From the NCBI GenBank assembly GCA_017410145.1, contig JAFQRJ010000027.1, positions 1 to 57,906 of the forward strand: 57,906 bases of DNA, written 5' to 3'. The notes under the pieces are model-generated. The model was given only the letters and a program-made list of their open reading frames with translations, did no database searches and was not told the origin of the DNA. The translations under genes were made by a program, and so were the position numbers. Positions 1 to 6,875 of this stretch are shown piece after piece. Position 1 is the stretch's first letter. Each line of letters opens with the position of its first letter. This stretch comes from Tyzzerella sp. Lineage in GTDB: Bacteria > Bacillota > Clostridia > Lachnospirales > Lachnospiraceae.

Positions 1-3000
1 AGAAAGAATATGTATACACAGAAGGTATCGGAACTTGCTTAGGTGCAGAACCAGATAATGTACTTGTTATGGAAGATATGACAGAAGTGACATATCCGAC
101 AACAATTACTAACGGAACAACCTACATGTATTCTTTTGAAACAAAGAATGATGCGACAGGAAGTGATTTCACATTTGGTTTTGGAGCTGGGGAAAATGCA
201 ATTTGGAGTGGCACAAGTGGTACACAAGCCGCAACAGATTGGACAACGGTTTCCGGTATGTTTACAGCGACATCAGATGCTTCAACTATTAAGTTTACAC
301 GTACAGGTGAAGGAAAAGTATATATTGATGATGTGTCTGTAAAAGAAATTTCTACGGATATCACTCCGGAAATTGTGGTAGAAGATAATACTCCAAACGC
401 AAATAACATGCCAAGTGGTAAAGAAAATATGATTAGTGGTGGTGATTTTACTACTGATCAGAGTGCGACATTTGCTGTGCAAAATGCTGAGTTTACAAAT
501 GGTTATGTAAAAATAAGTAAACCAAGTGGTGAGGAGAGAGCATTTTTAAGAACACCTGCGCTGACTTTTGTTAAAGATCATTCTTATACAATTTCATATT
601 ATGTGAATATTACAGAAGCAACAGGGTTAACTTTAGATATGTTGTATGAAAGTTCTAGCAATACGAGTGGATTTGACTCAAGTGAAGCATGGGGAAAGAA
701 TTTTATGCTTGCGCAATATACAGGTGGAACGGATGTTTCTTATAGATATAATGATGTAACTACGACACCAGCATCTATAACTACTACTACTGATGATTGG
801 GCTAAGATTGAATTCACATGGACTGCGGAGCAAAACGATACAGCTTATATTTATCTTATGGCATTCTACGGGCAAGCAACAATTTATGCGGACGACCTTG
901 TAGTATATGATAATACAGTGAAGCAGACTGTTGAAATCACACCTTCAAAAGCTTACCCTGACACTGACAATAGTTGGTATATTGGAATTGACGATATTTC
1001 AAAAGCAACATCATCTTACTACAAAATGACAATGAAGGTGGATGGAAAAGATGCAACTGTACCAGTAGGAATATACGATGGTAAATTTGTTATATGGCAT
1101 AACTTCTTCCCTGCTATTGATGGAACAAAAATTCCAAGTGAGAGTTTTGTGATTCCAAAAGATACCATTTTGTATCCGATTGATCCAGATAATACGGGAT
1201 GGACTACGGAAATTGATGCAAACCGTTTAATTACGACACAGGAATTAGCTGTCTATGCAATTGGTTCCGGTTGGGGCACATACTCAGAAGAACATGATAC
1301 AAGTGCTACACCAATCTATTATTGTATCGATAACAATATGAGTTACATGGTAACTTCAAGTGCCGGCGCATATGAGATTACAAAAGATGGTGTGGAGGTG
1401 ACTGCTACAGAACTAACAGAAGTAGGTACATATGACATTACACGTATTGAACAAGATACTAAATTTGTTCAAAAGGTTGTTCTATACAAGTCAGGTGATG
1501 CTCATGCAGATGCAACAAACACAATTACTTCTAAAGATCTTGTTGCAGTAAAAAAAGCAGCACTAGCAGAAAACACAAATACGCTCGGTGAACAGTTTGC
1601 AGCAGATGTTAACCGAAGTGGAAGTGTAGATGCATTCGATGCAAAGGTTATGAGAAGAGCACTTGTAAGTGATGATGCAGTTACTTACCTTAGTAAAGTG
1701 AAAGGTAACACATCTTTAAATGGAGAAATGCCGATTATCGGTTTTGATGGACCGGATACAAAGTTTTTAAATGGAAAAAATGCTGATACAATTTATTCCA
1801 TGATAAAAGAACTTGGATTTAACACCGTTTTATTGAATCGAGATGAAATTGGTACAAATTATGCATGGTCTAGTTCACAACTCTCCGTTGCAGAAAAATA
1901 TGGTTTAAAATTGTATTTGAATGACGGTTATATTAATGATGAATCAAATGTAGATGGAATTGGCTCTAACCTTGGAGACAGTGCAAAGACAAAACTGTCC
2001 AATATAACATCAAAATACGAAGGATACTCGTCGTTTGGAGGATATTTCATTGAAGACGAACCAATGTATAATGCCGTTTATAATAACAAAAAACCAATTG
2101 ATAATTTTGATGTGCCACTAACTAGCTTAAAGGGATATACCAATATACATAGTTATTTGAATTTAGCACCATATATAGCTGGTCAAATCAATAAACAACT
2201 TGGTGGTTCGTCATCGGCTCCTATGACATATCAAAATTATAAAAAATATATTGATGCGTCATCGACAGCTGGAGTAGAAGCATTGTCATATGATATGTAT
2301 TTGCGTGGAAATGGAATTACTACTGGCGCGTGGTTCTGGGAAAATACATCATATAAGATTCATACGGAAGACTTTTGGACTAACTTAGATTGGATGAGTA
2401 AGATTGCTAAAGCTGACAGTAACAAAAATCCATTCTATGCGTTTGTTCAGGTTGGAAATGATTTTAGCGATGAAAATAAAAATGCTACAGCTACAGCCAA
2501 CCTTACCACCATACAAGAAATGTATTTTGAAGCGAATGCAGCTCTTGCAATGGGTGCAAAAGGAATCAATTACTATTCTTTGGTGCAACCGCAAGAATAT
2601 GTTACCAGTGAAGATAATTCAACCGATTATACTCGTTCCGGTTTGATTAACTATTTGGGCGAAGCCAATAACGGCGGTTCTCATGGTGCTAATTATCAAT
2701 ATTATAACGCTGCCAAGAAGATTAATGCATACATCAAAGCTGTAGATGAAGTGTTGATGAACGCAACAAGTGAAGCAGTTATTACAACAAATTCTACTGT
2801 AGCTGGCTATCTGGAAAATGAGGTGAGCAGTTATGGTTCTATAGCAAGCATTAATAATACGGAAGTACTTGTTGGATGCTTCGATTACTATGGACAGGAA
2901 GCATTTATGGTAGTTAACATCACACCAGATGTAGGCAATTCAGGTTCGGCGCAAAATGTTACATTAACATTTGATGGTGCACAGTCAGGACAGTATATAG

Positions 3001-3095
3001 ATATGGATGATACTGCATGGCAAACAATGACTGCATCAAGCACGCTTGCACTTACTATTCCGGCAGGTGAAGCAGTGGTTATCGTTTTAGATTAA
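1..3095 (+). CDS. Modular secreted protein with CBM-like, dockerin-like and glycosidase-like domains (5' partial)
   Basis: The reading frame is open at the left window edge, so the start and any signal peptide lie outside; the first in-window ATG (69) is not a convincing start. Counting from it, residues 1-95 and about 120-300 look like jelly-roll carbohydrate-binding modules (tail YIDDVSV at about 90; later IYADDLVVYD). Residues about 472-535 hold two calcium-loop-like segments (SGDAHADATNTITSKDL and ADVNRSGSVDAFD), typical of a type I dockerin but placed internally. From about 553 a barrel-like domain begins (MPIIGFDGPDT) with an acidic FIEDEP motif; E662/E664 are candidate catalytic acids. 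The last 80 residues look like a C-terminal beta-sandwich. The role is inferred: extracellular polysaccharide binding and hydrolysis. The glycosidase family is not recognised; the domain calls come from motif reading. Confidence 0.75.
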   Translation, partial: KEYVYTEGIGTCLGAEPDNVLVMEDMTEVTYPTTITNGTTYMYSFETKNDATGSDFTFGFGAGENAIWSGTSGTQAATDWTTVSGMFTATSDASTIKFTRTGEGKVYIDDVSVKEISTDITPEIVVEDNTPNANNMPSGKENMISGGDFTTDQSATFAVQNAEFTNGYVKISKPSGEERAFLRTPALTFVKDHSYTISYYVNITEATGLTLDMLYESSSNTSGFDSSEAWGKNFMLAQYTGGTDVSYRYNDVTTTPASITTTTDDWAKIEFTWTAEQNDTAYIYLMAFYGQATIYADDLVVYDNTVKQTVEITPSKAYPDTDNSWYIGIDDISKATSSYYKMTMKVDGKDATVPVGIYDGKFVIWHNFFPAIDGTKIPSESFVIPKDTILYPIDPDNTGWTTEIDANRLITTQELAVYAIGSGWGTYSEEHDTSATPIYYCIDNNMSYMVTSSAGAYEITKDGVEVTATELTEVGTYDITRIEQDTKFVQKVVLYKSGDAHADATNTITSKDLVAVKKAALAENTNTLGEQFAADVNRSGSVDAFDAKVMRRALVSDDAVTYLSKVKGNTSLNGEMPIIGFDGPDTKFLNGKNADTIYSMIKELGFNTVLLNRDEIGTNYAWSSSQLSVAEKYGLKLYLNDGYINDESNVDGIGSNLGDSAKTKLSNITSKYEGYSSFGGYFIEDEPMYNAVYNNKKPIDNFDVPLTSLKGYTNIHSYLNLAPYIAGQINKQLGGSSSAPMTYQNYKKYIDASSTAGVEALSYDMYLRGNGITTGAWFWENTSYKIHTEDFWTNLDWMSKIAKADSNKNPFYAFVQVGNDFSDENKNATATANLTTIQEMYFEANAALAMGAKGINYYSLVQPQEYVTSEDNSTDYTRSGLINYLGEANNGGSHGANYQYYNAAKKINAYIKAVDEVLMNATSEAVITTNSTVAGYLENEVSSYGSIASINNTEVLVGCFDYYGQEAFMVVNITPDVGNSGSAQNVTLTFDGAQSGQYIDMDDTAWQTMTASSTLALTIPAGEAVVIVLD

Positions 3096-3176: not shown

Positions 3177-4772
3177 ATGGATTATTGGAAAGAAGATAAT
3201 TATGTTTATTGTAAAGAAAAGATACTTCCGATATCAATTAAAGATTCAAAAGATGTAGATAATGTAAATGAACTCTTAAAAGAAAAAGAAGCCAGTGTTT
3301 CTTTTGAGACCACACAAGTATCCACTTTTGCAAAAAAAGGGGCTTATGTAGTTCTTGATTTTGGAAAGGAATTATGTGGTGGCCTTCGCTTTATTACACG
3401 TGCCATAGAAAGAGACGATGTTGATTTACGCATTACGCTTGGAGAATCACTATCAGAAGCATGTTCTAATCTTGGTGAGAAAAATGCTACCAATGATCAT
3501 TCGCCACGAGATTTTAATGTACGGATTTCCAATATGTCTGATTTGACATTTGGAATGAGCGGTTTTCGTTTCGCACGGATAGAATTATTAACAGATTCAT
3601 TTGTCTTGTTCCGTAATATCATTGCAGTAAATACTTTACCAGTGTTTGAAAAAGAGGGCTACATAAGGACAAGCGATGAACAATTAAATAAGATTATTGA
3701 TACTGCAATTTATACATTAAAACTAAATTTTCAAAATGGTTATATATGGGATGGAATTAAACGAGATCGTCTGGTTTGGAGTGGTGATCTCAATCAGGAG
3801 ATTATTACATCCATTTATCTGTTCGGTGACAATAAAAATATAACAAATTCACTTTCTTTCTTACGAAAAGAAACACCGGAAACAGAATGGATTAATACAA
3901 TTCCAATATACTCTGCATGGTGGGTAATTAATTTATGTGATTACTGTCGACTTTCAGGGAATCGGGTATATTTTGAAGAAAATAAGGAATATGCAAAAAA
4001 AGTTTTGAAGAAAATAAATAGTTGTATTTCAGATGATGGCGTGATGGATTTTAATCTTCCACCGGATGCAATGTCCTTTTATCTTGACTGGCCTACATAT
4101 GAGACGGCAGATGCAATGATAGGTACAGCTTGTCTTTTTATCTACGCAGCTAAAAGGTATCTTGCAATAGAAGAAAGTGAAAATGCACGGGCTATTATTA
4201 AAAAACTTGTAGTGTATTTAGAAATGTCCTGCGAGTTTAAGCAAACGCGTGCATTCCAGATTTTAGCCGGAAGAAATGCGTGTTGCGAGGATCTCTTTTT
4301 AGAAAAAAATGGAGCAAGTGGATTTTCGACTTTTATGTCTTACTACATATTGCTGGCGGATGCACTTGCGGAGGGTAAAAATATGCTCTCAATAATAAAA
4401 GAATATTTTGGAGGCATGCTTTCTCGTGGAGCAACCACCTTTTGGGAAGATTTTAATATAGAATGGCTTGATGGAAGCGGACGTATTGATGAATTTCCCA
4501 AAGAAGGAGAAAAAGATATTCATGGCGATTATGGCGCATTTTGTTACAAAGGATTTCGTCATTCACTTTGTCACGGTTGGGCAAGTGGAGTCCTTGCATT
4601 TATCATCGAATATATTTTAGGATTACAACTTCAAGATGGAGGCGATACATATGAAATTATGCCACATACAAGGGGGATTCGTGAAATAGAAGCAAAGCTT
4701 CCATTAAAAAAAGGATGGTTATCTATTCAAGTAATAAATGGGAAACTAACGTCGAAGTTAGAAGCAAATTAG
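3177..4772 (+). CDS. GH78 alpha-L-rhamnosidase-like protein
   Basis: A 531-residue protein starting at ATG 3177, 8 bases after GGAGG (3164-3168); an upstream in-frame TTG lies inside that RBS. The segment IWDGIKRDRLVWSGDL (about residues 190-205) matches the GH78 (alpha/alpha)6-barrel signature DGxKRDRxxWxGD. The N-terminal part (VVLDFGKELCGGLRF, later SGFRFARIELL) matches the beta-sandwich that precedes the barrel. The C-terminus (MPHTRGIREIEAKLPLKKGW) matches the usual small terminal beta domain. There is no signal peptide, so it probably acts in the cytoplasm on imported rhamnosides. It is shorter than many GH78 enzymes. It is followed closely by the small peptide gene (33-base gap), suggesting co-transcription. 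Family membership is fairly secure; the substrate is inferred. Confidence 0.82.
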   Translation: MDYWKEDNYVYCKEKILPISIKDSKDVDNVNELLKEKEASVSFETTQVSTFAKKGAYVVLDFGKELCGGLRFITRAIERDDVDLRITLGESLSEACSNLGEKNATNDHSPRDFNVRISNMSDLTFGMSGFRFARIELLTDSFVLFRNIIAVNTLPVFEKEGYIRTSDEQLNKIIDTAIYTLKLNFQNGYIWDGIKRDRLVWSGDLNQEIITSIYLFGDNKNITNSLSFLRKETPETEWINTIPIYSAWWVINLCDYCRLSGNRVYFEENKEYAKKVLKKINSCISDDGVMDFNLPPDAMSFYLDWPTYETADAMIGTACLFIYAAKRYLAIEESENARAIIKKLVVYLEMSCEFKQTRAFQILAGRNACCEDLFLEKNGASGFSTFMSYYILLADALAEGKNMLSIIKEYFGGMLSRGATTFWEDFNIEWLDGSGRIDEFPKEGEKDIHGDYGAFCYKGFRHSLCHGWASGVLAFIIEYILGLQLQDGGDTYEIMPHTRGIREIEAKLPLKKGWLSIQVINGKLTSKLEAN

Positions 4773-4805: not shown

Positions 4806-4916
4806 GTGAGGTATGAAGAACCTGAAATGGAAATAGTTGAATTTAGAAACAAACAAGATGTGGTTACGGGATCGACGATAGATAATAGACCAGGTGATCC
4901 GGATATTATCTGGTAA
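4806..4916 (+). CDS. 36-residue peptide with PEMEIVEF motif and DPDIIW tail, unknown function
   Basis: A GTG start at 4806 sits 8 bases after a perfect AAGGAGG (4791-4797) and reads 36 codons to TAA at 4914-4916. The peptide begins VRYEEPEMEIVEF, continues NKQDVVTGSTIDNRPG and ends DPDIIW. It has no signal peptide or membrane segment and no cysteine. It is acidic, with a Gly/Pro/Asp-rich tail and a hydrophobic aromatic end. It lies between the GH78 gene and a secreted-protein gene whose own RBS starts 14 bases after its stop. Short proteins with a Y-E-x-P-x-M-E-[IV] start are, to my recollection, frequent hypothetical proteins in gut Clostridia; I know no assigned function. It could be a modified-peptide precursor, a secreted signal or a regulator; none is shown. 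Confidence 0.7.
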   Translation: MRYEEPEMEIVEFRNKQDVVTGSTIDNRPGDPDIIW

Positions 4917-4943
4917 GGCCAACTGGAAAGGAGGAAAAAGGTT

Positions 4944-6071
4944 ATGAAAAATAAAGTATTAAAAAATGTGAGAGTAATTGCCTTATCAGTAGCTGCAGTT
5001 GCTATGGTAGTGGCAGGAATTCTAGGTACAGGAGTTGGAGCGAATGCCGCCAAAACTACAGAACAAACAGATGTCGTAAAATATGTAGAGTTTACTGAAG
5101 ATATTACATCTTATTTAAATGACAATACCGCACCTGAATATCCAACAAGCGAACCAATAGGATATGGTTATCTGTTTGGCGGATGGTATGATAAGAATGG
5201 AGATGTCTATACTGAAATTAAGGATACGACAGATTTGGCGAACAAAACTGGTACTGTAGTTGCTAAATTTGTTCCGGCACAGACATTAAGTGTAAAATGT
5301 CAGAACTGGGCAGGAACAAAGGAAGGCGACAGTGATGTTATTGTCAGAGTGATATCGGCAACAGATTCAACCAATTATAGTAATTTCGGATTTATCGTAT
5401 CAAGAATTGATGAAGCTGGTAAGGAAACTGTACTTACACAGGAACCATTCACAACAACAGATGTGTATTCTAAGTTTAATTATTATAAAGATGCAGAGGC
5501 TACTGAACCGACTGCAACATTTGAACCGGATGATTTGTTTGGAAAAGCGGCAAAGCATTTTACAACTTGTACGGTGGGAAAGATTCCGGCAACGGCACAT
5601 GGTACAATTATCTGTATCAAACCGTTTTGGGTAACTTTGGATGGAACAACAGTATATGGACTTAGCAAGTTTGCACATGTGGAAGATGGATATCTTGGTT
5701 ACGTGAATGTACCGGTAAACTTAAACATTCTGAGTGCAGATAATGCATCATCAGCAGGAATCTTAAGTGTAAAATCAGATGATGGTTTAACATTTGTTGG
5801 AACAGATGAAATTGAGTGTGGAAAAGTATTTGATGAAATGGAATTTAATGTACTGAGTGATGGTACAATTAAATGTGCCGGTAACACAAGTGACATTTCT
5901 GAAAAAAGTGAAATGGATATTTATATCAACCTAAAATTCTTAAGAAAAGACATAGACACGGATGCTCCGATAGCAAATGAGTTCTATACATTTACTGTTA
6001 CAGGAGAAGATTTCTGTAATGAAAAAGAAGTTTTTCTTGAAGAGATGGATGTTTGGAATGTTATATACTAA
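4944..6071 (+). CDS. Secreted protein of unknown function ending DVWNVIY
   Basis: A 375-residue protein with ATG 4944 preceded by AAAGGAGGAAAAAGG. Residues 1-36 form a clear signal peptide (basic MKNKVLKNVR, a hydrophobic stretch, then cleavage near GANAA). The region around residues 65-110 (FGGWYDKNGDVY...VVAKFVP) resembles the short beta-repeat (InlB B-repeat/Listeria-Bacteroides repeat) of surface proteins. The rest is beta-rich, with no catalytic motif recognised and no LPXTG or membrane anchor at the C-terminus. It ends in acidic residues followed by DVWNVIY. The gene is 27 bases after the small peptide and 17 bases before the acidic membrane protein, so the three are probably one operon. 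It could be an adhesin or a partner of its neighbours. Confidence 0.75.
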   Translation: MKNKVLKNVRVIALSVAAVAMVVAGILGTGVGANAAKTTEQTDVVKYVEFTEDITSYLNDNTAPEYPTSEPIGYGYLFGGWYDKNGDVYTEIKDTTDLANKTGTVVAKFVPAQTLSVKCQNWAGTKEGDSDVIVRVISATDSTNYSNFGFIVSRIDEAGKETVLTQEPFTTTDVYSKFNYYKDAEATEPTATFEPDDLFGKAAKHFTTCTVGKIPATAHGTIICIKPFWVTLDGTTVYGLSKFAHVEDGYLGYVNVPVNLNILSADNASSAGILSVKSDDGLTFVGTDEIECGKVFDEMEFNVLSDGTIKCAGNTSDISEKSEMDIYINLKFLRKDIDTDAPIANEFYTFTVTGEDFCNEKEVFLEEMDVWNVIY

Positions 6072-6088
6072 AATAGGAGTATTTGAAC

Positions 6089-6532
6089 ATGAAAAAAATG
6101 CTAAAAAATAAGAAACTGTATATAACGATTATTATTATCTGTATTTTAATTTTGGTAGGGTGGATAATTGGTATTGTTATGAACCAAGGCAAGGAAACAT
6201 CGGGCAAAAATGATTCAGAACAAGACGTGATTGTTCATGAAACAGATGAAAATACAGTAGAGGAAAAAGCGGAAGAAGGCTTGAAAGAATCTGATTCTGA
6301 GGATGGCCCAGTTTTAAACGAAGACAACATGATTGACTTTAACGGTAGTGATGCGAAAAGTGATAATAATGAGTCTGAAGGAAACGATGTCGATGATAGC
6401 AAAACGGATGACAAGCAGGGTAATGACAGTGAAGACAATGAGGATACAAATGTCACTGAACCATCCGATGATGAGCAGAAAGAAGATGATGAAAATTCGG
6501 ATGATACTGGCTCATGGGGCATATTTTATTAA
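6089..6532 (+). CDS. Membrane-anchored acidic low-complexity protein ending SWGIFY
   Basis: A 147-residue protein starting at ATG 6089, 9 bases after ATAGGAG. Residues 1-9 are basic (MKKMLKNKK). Residues about 10-32 form one hydrophobic helix (YITIIIICILILVGWIIGIV). The remaining 115 residues are almost entirely Asp, Glu, Ser, Asn, Gly and Lys, and end DDTGSWGIFY. The topology is probably a signal anchor with the acidic tail outside. There is no recognised family; the acidic part resembles surface spacer or calcium-binding low-complexity tails. Its aromatic C-terminus resembles that of the preceding protein (DVWNVIY). No T-tailed terminator was seen before the rpsU promoter. Confidence 0.7.
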   Translation: MKKMLKNKKLYITIIIICILILVGWIIGIVMNQGKETSGKNDSEQDVIVHETDENTVEEKAEEGLKESDSEDGPVLNEDNMIDFNGSDAKSDNNESEGNDVDDSKTDDKQGNDSEDNEDTNVTEPSDDEQKEDDENSDDTGSWGIFY

Positions 6533-6698: not shown

Positions 6699-6875
6699 AT
6701 GTCAAATGTAATCGTTAAAGAGAACGAAACGTTAGATAGCGCTTTACGCAGATTCAAAAGAAACTGTGCAAAAGCTGGTATTCAACAAGAAATTCGTAAA
6801 AGAGAACATTACGAAAAACCAAGCGTAAGACGTAAAAAGAAATCAGAAGCTGCTAGAAAACGTAAGTTTAACTAA
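6699..6875 (+). CDS. rpsU: 30S ribosomal protein S21
   Basis: A 58-residue protein, [19 protein letters not shown] followed by a highly basic tail ending RKRKFN, which is the S21 family pattern at its normal length. ATG 6699 is chosen because it gives the canonical S21 N-terminus. The purine-rich GGAGGGGAGG lies 14 or more bases upstream, so spacing is longer than usual; an in-frame GTG at 6627 would add 24 non-conserved residues. The gene has its own promoter and a strong terminator, so it is monocistronic. S21 sits on the small-subunit platform near the mRNA-anti-SD helix. Confidence 0.96.

Follow-up and report, generated by a model that had tools for sequence, protein, structure and literature searches.

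A C-terminal aromatic motif is nearly exclusive, in the three genomes scanned for it, to a system of short peptides, secreted proteins and membrane proteins, one set of which is encoded in the 57,906-nucleotide stretch of DNA analysed here (the window; contig C27 of genome G000, which comprises 1.89 Mb in 32 contigs and is 67.8% complete). Across related loci, peptides and neighbouring membrane proteins share their ends in a locus-specific manner; in the subgroup to which the window belongs this is absent, and the two have in common only the class of tail, an acidic stretch followed by an aromatic end. The explanation that we favour, which we would place a little short of probable, is a surface-display cassette, formed by an LPP-like RiPP, a cohesin scaffold and a membrane tag serving as ligand, beside a polysaccharide-degradation operon.

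Gene Organization of the Window

Genes were called with a simple ORF/RBS script, which listed 51 genes across the window; all features given below are on the + strand. At 69..3095 a modular protein is encoded, listed with 1008 aa from an uncertain start. It has a Dockerin_1 domain (1518-1664; E 4.1e-7, over cut-off) that was absent from the preliminary description, together with DUF4434-like and CBM-like parts, both below the Pfam cut-offs. The GH78-like alpha-L-rhamnosidase gene (3177..4772) ends 33 bases 5' of the gene of an LPP-like RiPP precursor (4806..4916; 36 aa, GTG start, AGGAGG upstream), which ends DPDIIW. After gaps of 27 and 17 bases come the genes of a secreted one-cohesin scaffold-like protein (4944..6071; 375 aa, ending DVWNVIY) and of a membrane-anchored tag protein (6089..6532) with an N-terminal TM helix, a long acidic low-complexity arm and the end SWGIFY, the tag WGIFY being encoded at 6515..6529. 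The latter has 147 aa from the RBS-preceded ATG at 6089 and 149 aa from the TTG at 6083. Just 3' of the cassette, a 58-aa ORF (6699-6875) resembles by eye the ribosomal protein bS21.

When the genes were re-read, the three tails were as the preliminary description had given them, and W-x-x-x-[YF] ended no other of the listed genes, in line with its statement that the ending is exclusive to the trio. The three tails are unequal, and DIIW alone is not recognisable as the same motif.

The Peptide and Its Relatives

The leader of the window peptide is predicted to be formed by residues 1-21 (4806-4868; YEEPEMEIVEF...DVVT) and the core by GSTIDNRPGDPDIIW, with S23 as a candidate phosphoserine; both the cleavage and the phosphorylation site are predictions. 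Y3 and P6 of the YxxP leader do not vary among 20 aligned peptides (A1), and among 37 leaders Y3 is invariant and P6 is present in at least 90%. By loose regular expressions, 91 of 99 peptides have a YxxP-like leader and 63 have T-x-S. The leader consensus here, YExPEMEIxxFxxxDVxTxS, has no HQ and its T-x-S would place the serine at core position 2, departing in both respects from the published LPP consensus YxxPxVLxHQxIxFETxxS, in which the phosphorylated serine is at core position 3 (PMC13381572).

The related-locus search returned 4 loci only, and most relatives were supplied by other genomes. The peptide and the secreted protein have many relatives in G000 and G004, mostly as adjacent pairs. 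A search with the profile A4, trained on peptides of G000, G004, G007, G016, G061 and UBA1230, found the peptide in 10 of 150 family genomes, the matches in G133 (E 0.0098) and G121 being doubtful, as the gene caller sees no gene there. G061 and G082 are one genome, with peptide matches at identical coordinates; G000 and G082 both belong to family f1. A match in G012 was rejected, as it lies inside an opposite-strand gene call (L163).

Two orphan YExP peptides have W-type ends (L147:6994-7107, G000:C11; L154:6337-6501, G004:C53). Their neighbourhoods, the ssb/rpsR and coaD regions, look housekeeping by eye, and like-tagged membrane proteins are present elsewhere in the same genomes (L268 and L155).

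Conservation of the C-Terminal Ends

The DNA pattern TGG RRN NNN NTN TWY TAR was scanned with its reversed form as control. There were 57 matches, 29 in G000, 18 in G004 and 10 in G061 (control 11, 20 and 28), so that among these three genomes the bare matches were above the control in G000 only. We inspected 56 distinct matches, nearly the same set plus one G007 stretch and locus flanks, and 16 of them terminate an ORF of 35 aa or longer that has a start codon. Fifteen of these belong to the system (10 membrane proteins, 3 secreted proteins and 2 YExP peptides), and the sixteenth is an 85-aa ORF of a different kind. Considering that the pattern was built without knowledge of the families, these were recovered through the tail alone, which speaks against the background frequency in unrelated proteins that the preliminary description had named as a possible refutation.

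The ends are also kept at homologous loci, the second point on which the earlier proposal depended. At 11 of the 16 secreted loci read (G000 7/8, G004 1/5, G061 2/2, UBA1230 1/1), the membrane gene lies directly 3' of the secreted gene. All 11 copies have W-G at positions -5/-4, ten of them with a final Y or F; identity to the window copy goes down to 21% (8 of the 11 aligned). Of 16 copies of the secreted protein, 13 have W-x-x-x-Y, which in 10 of them forms the extreme C-terminus. Peptides adjoining the secreted gene have a final W in 8 of the 15 read, and the sixteenth (L055) appears broken. Over all distinct peptides, 32 of 99 finish in W, F or Y; among 938 background genes the number is 92.

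Proteins with a hydrophobic N-terminal helix and then low-complexity sequence were sought mechanically, which gave 25 in the stretches scanned. In L043 a TM helix is found in frame 5' of the start chosen by the script, and lipoprotein-like versions of the membrane protein were recognised by eye in L148, L157, L162 and L253; taken with the TM helix, these versions suggest that the tag is located outside the cell. No recognisable tag was found in the acidic lipoprotein of L187. Matches of the membrane protein to PFF1_TM, EbpS and similar Pfam/NCBIfam entries were discarded, since they are below the cut-offs and look compositional.

Some membrane proteins contain an internal second copy of the tag (DxSGSW, DNEIPFDD, SDDFDSMF). 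The one at L159:6707-7441 (G016:C51) has the tag-like stretches DNEIPFDD, DNEISFED and DEDGWTTIIVKP, one of which recurs within the end of a peptide encoded elsewhere (L161:7981-8097); the protein looks as if it were a multi-tag display.

The Secreted Protein, Its Cohesin and the Dockerins

After its signal peptide, the secreted protein has a List-Bact repeat-like part at residues 61-102 that stays below the Pfam cut-off, an Ig-like region, here named DSNY (5283..5681, residues 114-246), over which no Pfam family matched, and a cohesin domain (5697..6068, residues 252-375) whose last residues are the VWNVIY tail. DSNY recurs in large secreted proteins adjoining other YExP peptides. The type I cohesin fold was borne out for residues 252-375, with the alignment extending to residue 375. 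With the whole model, Foldseek gave nothing at E <= 0.001; its cohesin rows had prob 1.00 and E 0.028-0.05, and the last 8 residues of the model had pLDDT <50. As the tail of the secreted protein is the end of the cohesin domain, domain homology explains it without a tag. The tag that the preliminary description had extended to all three products is therefore retained only in part: the motif links peptides with membrane proteins, but a single sorting tag for all three proteins is weakened by the alignment reaching the secreted C-terminus.

Dockerins were matched in the cassette-bearing genomes G000 (8), G004 (2) and G061 (5), and none was found in G003, G016 or G104; the search for the secreted gene covered the genomes other than G104. 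By fold and linkage, the dockerin protein at 69..3095 should be a candidate partner of the cohesin. The arrangement is like that of cellulosome scaffoldins with type I cohesins in its C-terminal cohesin fold, in the dockerin-bearing protein 3.3 kb away and in the further dockerins elsewhere in G000; it is unlike them in that each protein has a single cohesin and no recognised anchoring domain.

Matching of Peptide and Membrane Protein Tails

Matching was scored as the summed local alignment of the peptide core with the last 25 residues, and compared with permuted pairs. For 25 neighbouring pairs the observed sum was 612 against a permuted mean of 441.7 (sd 27.7), and 0 of 20,000 permutations were as high; the own partner was the best-scoring one in 6 of the 25. 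The result was again 0/20,000 with 27 pairs, when additional peptides of L255 and L274 were included, and 51 of 20,000 permutations reached the observed value when the three strongest pairs were removed (22 pairs). Without the ten three-gene cassettes, the remaining 15 pairs scored 430 versus 268.7 (0/20,000), and the 8 pairs of the LPxVP class 225 versus 167.0 (34/20,000). The 11 pairs from W/DSNY loci, which include the window, scored 192 versus 203.7, with 16,108 of 20,000 permutations as high; taken by itself, the pair of the window lends no support to specific matching. The tested pairs leave aside the L053 peptide, which ends GGWGNQ.

This last value, the reach of the cohesin alignment to residue 375, and the fact that the window peptide has little in common with the others beyond its last aromatic residue are what would be seen if the tails were a family resemblance only, that is, a cohesin strand, an inherited membrane tail and a loose hydrophobic W in the peptide, with no common recognition. 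We consider this reading rather unlikely, because the tag is kept on membrane proteins with quite different arms: an orphan of G004 with a Gly-Ser repeat arm (L112/L155) ends TGWGPLF, and an orphan of G000 with an acidic arm (L268), adjoining an HprK-like gene, ends TGWSPFF. Like-tagged peptides are found elsewhere in the same genomes (KWGALF for GWGPLF; in G000 an orphan peptide with GWSGFF for GWSPFF). In other loci, moreover, peptide and membrane ends match nearly letter for letter, as in DEDGWTVIIVKP/DEDGWTTIIVKP, LPDDVF/LPDDIF and SGWSGYY/DGWTGYY, or contain identical stretches (EYELPFIP; ELPFVP). The peptides of L253 and L254 do not have the tag of their neighbour.

Tag Class and the Linked Secreted Domain

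Large secreted proteins beside the peptides carry either DSNY or a second domain, LYLY (both names coined here). Among 20 membrane proteins, 13 W-type ones are found with DSNY and 7 LPxVP-type ones with LYLY, and none is crossed (Fisher p 1.3e-5); this table started from 30 membrane proteins, of which 10 without either domain within 6 kb drop out, and of the 13 W/DSNY loci, 11 belong to a single paralogous cassette. Loci of interest supplied the seeds of the DSNY and LYLY profiles, and the regular expressions for the tails were written post hoc; the Fisher tests, here and below, ignore relatedness, and the independent events are fewer than the counts. As both kinds of tag are present in G000 and in G004, phylogeny alone is insufficient for the pattern; co-duplication of linked genes is the main alternative. 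In L274 (G150) the two classes are seen together, the DSNY-side peptide ending DTGWDQFRVDPEKSDI and the LYLY-side peptide holding SVLPDDD.

The association was also observed in a second family of 38 peptides, where the tail ES[FY]xx[LMF]F is present in 14 of 15 DSNY-linked versus 3 of 23 unlinked members (p 9e-7). L284, which has no DSNY neighbour and a different tail, stands outside this count, and none of the membrane tag proteins flagged lies within 3 kb of a peptide of this family.

In most of the loci L283-L321 (mostly family f11), a YExP peptide lies 3' of a large secreted protein; the tail classes ITY/INY, KFN, EIKF and ESFSSLFGK seem to track the class of the protein.

Putative Modification Machinery

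A discrete PqqD-like RRE is encoded on contig C3 of G000 (PF05402, 51 bits, cut-off 23.4), and PqqD-type RREs were found in the five peptide genomes tested first and not in G003, which is also peptide-free by profile. Over the 150 family genomes, 46 have an RRE, namely all 10 peptide genomes and 36 of the other 140; a complete overlap by chance would be about 3.5e-6 (calculated by hand, relatedness ignored). With the HprK-like profile A6 the same 10 genomes rank first, partly by construction, since 7 of its 9 training sequences came from these genomes (not G000, G144 or G133). The kinase of G000 (C20:85053-85754) scored 301 bits with A6, in which the P-loop SGTGKST is conserved; NCBIfam HprK_rel_A gave E 0.027, far below cut-off, and no Pfam kinase matched.

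ORFs for an archaeal-type, SipW-like signal peptidase with S-M-x-P and H-R motifs were recognised by eye near the RRE in L180 (G000), L182, L185, L187 and L191. That of L191 matched TIGR02228 at E 1.4e-5, below cut-off, and neither it nor that of L182 had a Pfam match. The MsbA-like exporter L180:10746-12389 matched PF00664 and PF00005 over cut-off, and TIGR02204/TIGR02203 at about 260 bits, below the equivalog cut-offs. Contig C3 of G000 thus holds RRE, SipW-like ORF and ABC exporter together. An NTP transferase (PF14907, E 1.9e-37) is present in L187, with similar ORFs by eye in L189, L252 and L282.

On the window contig there was no RRE or kinase match; in G000 the RRE matches are on C3 and C7 and the kinase on C20. 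For this reason we call the window peptide LPP-like, acting in trans, and not part of a standard LPP cluster. Peptide and RRE are 0.8-6.1 kb apart in 6 of the 10 peptide genomes, including G133 with its doubtful peptide. Where they are close, the operons (S26, NTase and ABC named by eye) read HprK-RRE-S26-NTase-secreted protein-peptide-membrane protein in L252, secreted-peptide-lipoprotein (KWGRIF)-HprK-RRE in L253, peptide-secreted-membrane protein-HprK-RRE-S26-ABC in L254 and two peptides-membrane protein (GWTGYY)-HprK-RRE in L255, while L282 has three peptides with HprK, RRE, S26, ABC and NTase.

Membrane tag proteins adjoin kinase or RRE genes in L253, L254, L255, L191 and L268, which ties the tag to the machinery and not to one enzyme locus. 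Taking into account that the tags are short, C-terminal and aromatic on both classes of carrier, they might instead mark their carriers for one common enzyme or quality-control factor outside the cytoplasm, such as a ligase or a PDZ or tail-specific protease, that acts on both the exported LPP core and the membrane protein. We regard this as unlikely: the tags vary between loci of one genome, with W-type and LPxVP-type in G000 and G004, their type follows the linked secreted domain, and no such protease was noticed in the operons read.

In L185, L191, L252 and L257, RRE, S26 or HprK-like genes are beside exopolysaccharide-like genes (Wzz/tyrosine kinase, by eye); LPP genes are found beside exopolysaccharide genes in Bacilli too (PMC13381572). 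In three genomes the RRE operon also encodes a similar membrane protein of ~315 aa (L180:9771-10724, L189:5034-5975, L191:8549-9502), the first of which is weakly polysaccharide deacetylase-like (TIGR03933, E 1.5e-4, below cut-off).

Comparison with Known Systems

The preliminary description had presented the locus as its best candidate for an undescribed system. This does not hold, as the leader, together with the RRE, HprK-like, SipW-like and MsbA-like genes, matches the LPP family of RiPPs, published in May 2026 (Popov et al., Nat Commun 2026; PMC13381572). The main text of that paper describes serine polyphosphorylation and an RRE-assisted cleavage of the leader after T-1 by a SipW-like peptidase; as of 2026, the role of LPPs was unknown and their final product unidentified (PMC13381572). 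The likeness comprises a short precursor whose leader has YxxP and whose C-terminus varies, the discrete RRE, the HprK-like kinase, the SipW-like signal peptidase, the MsbA-like exporter and, at the related locus L187, the NTP transferase; LPP loci are often in capsular polysaccharide regions (PMC13381572). Peptide modification and a surface polysaccharide setting, which had both been proposed, are likely.

Unlike in the LPP loci of that main text, the window precursor belongs to a set of many scattered copies, the machinery is on other contigs, glycosidases and a cohesin scaffold are encoded next to the precursor, and precursors here share C-terminal tags with membrane-anchored proteins; the terms 'membrane protein' and 'Lachnospiraceae' do not occur in the main text (PMC13381572). 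The system is thus partly known, the new elements being the dispersed glycan-locus setting and the tags common to membrane-anchored partners. Alternatively, the membrane protein might give immunity to a bacteriocin-like LPP or serve as its decoy, displaying the same end so as to titrate the producer's own peptide or its receptor. This would suit the adjoining genes with matching ends and the patchy distribution that the authors deemed typical of biological conflict (PMC13381572), but is improbable with up to 18 peptide matches per genome, many of them beside glycan-degradation or large secreted genes and with the machinery elsewhere, and with the orphans L147 and L154 in neighbourhoods of housekeeping type.

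Paeninodin-like lasso peptides of rumen bacteria are alike in that their clusters are reported to hold a Y/WxxP-type leader, PqqD, an HPr-kinase-like gene and a nucleotidyltransferase (PMC7533575). A lasso peptide was rejected here, since the leader peptidase PF13471 was over cut-off in none of the 6 genomes searched, with one sub-threshold match in G061. Judged by titles and the beginnings of abstracts, none of the papers that the literature searches returned deals with such sharing of tags or with a link between RiPPs and cohesins.

Bacterial amyloid signalling motifs are likewise short, locus-specific terminal motifs common to the products of neighbouring genes. Unlike them, the tags described here are probably extracellular, they are acidic or contain proline, and one of the partners is a RiPP-like precursor.

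Proposed Mechanism

In the surface-display cassette that we favour, the steps on the peptide are modelled by homology. The discrete RRE of the genome would bind the YxxP leader, and the serine that comes after T-x would be the target of the HprK-like kinase. Cleavage behind the threonine would fall to the SipW-like peptidase, and export of the core, which ends in the tag, to the MsbA-like transporter. For the secreted one-cohesin scaffold, the expected partner is the dockerin of the protein encoded nearby, and the membrane protein would expose a tag of this class on the cell exterior, carried by an anchor with a long flexible acidic arm. Most likely, the tag is a short ligand at the C-terminus that is recognised by a domain of the linked secreted proteins; DSNY would read the W-type tags and LYLY those of LPxVP type. 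The membrane copy would then tether the enzyme complex to the cell. The exported peptide would provide the same ligand a second time, either free or anchored at another place, and may compete with the tethering or extend it.

A more far-reaching form of the surface-display cassette, which we hold to be doubtful, is a surface tag code, in which LPP-type RiPPs and membrane proteins carry interchangeable C-terminal ligands, each read by a co-encoded secreted glycosidase or scaffold domain. If true, the peptides would serve on the surface as adaptors, or would regulate how enzymes are attached, and would not be antibiotics; LPPs would thereby gain a first function, and a cellulosome-like complex a new mode of anchoring. 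Precursors are many per genome here and several adjoin glycosidase and scaffold genes; their variable C-terminal part is common to a membrane protein, beside kinase/RRE genes in several genomes. The finding offers a testable hypothesis for the purpose of the variable core, identifies a gene that accompanies the precursor, and connects RiPPs with cohesin-dockerin assembly at the surface.

In two further loci (L263:3883-5420 and L277:4083-8977), an RRE/HprK-like/S26/ABC-type toolkit is found with a radical SAM-like protein (by eye) and Cys-containing short peptides; this is perhaps a different RiPP class with common machinery.
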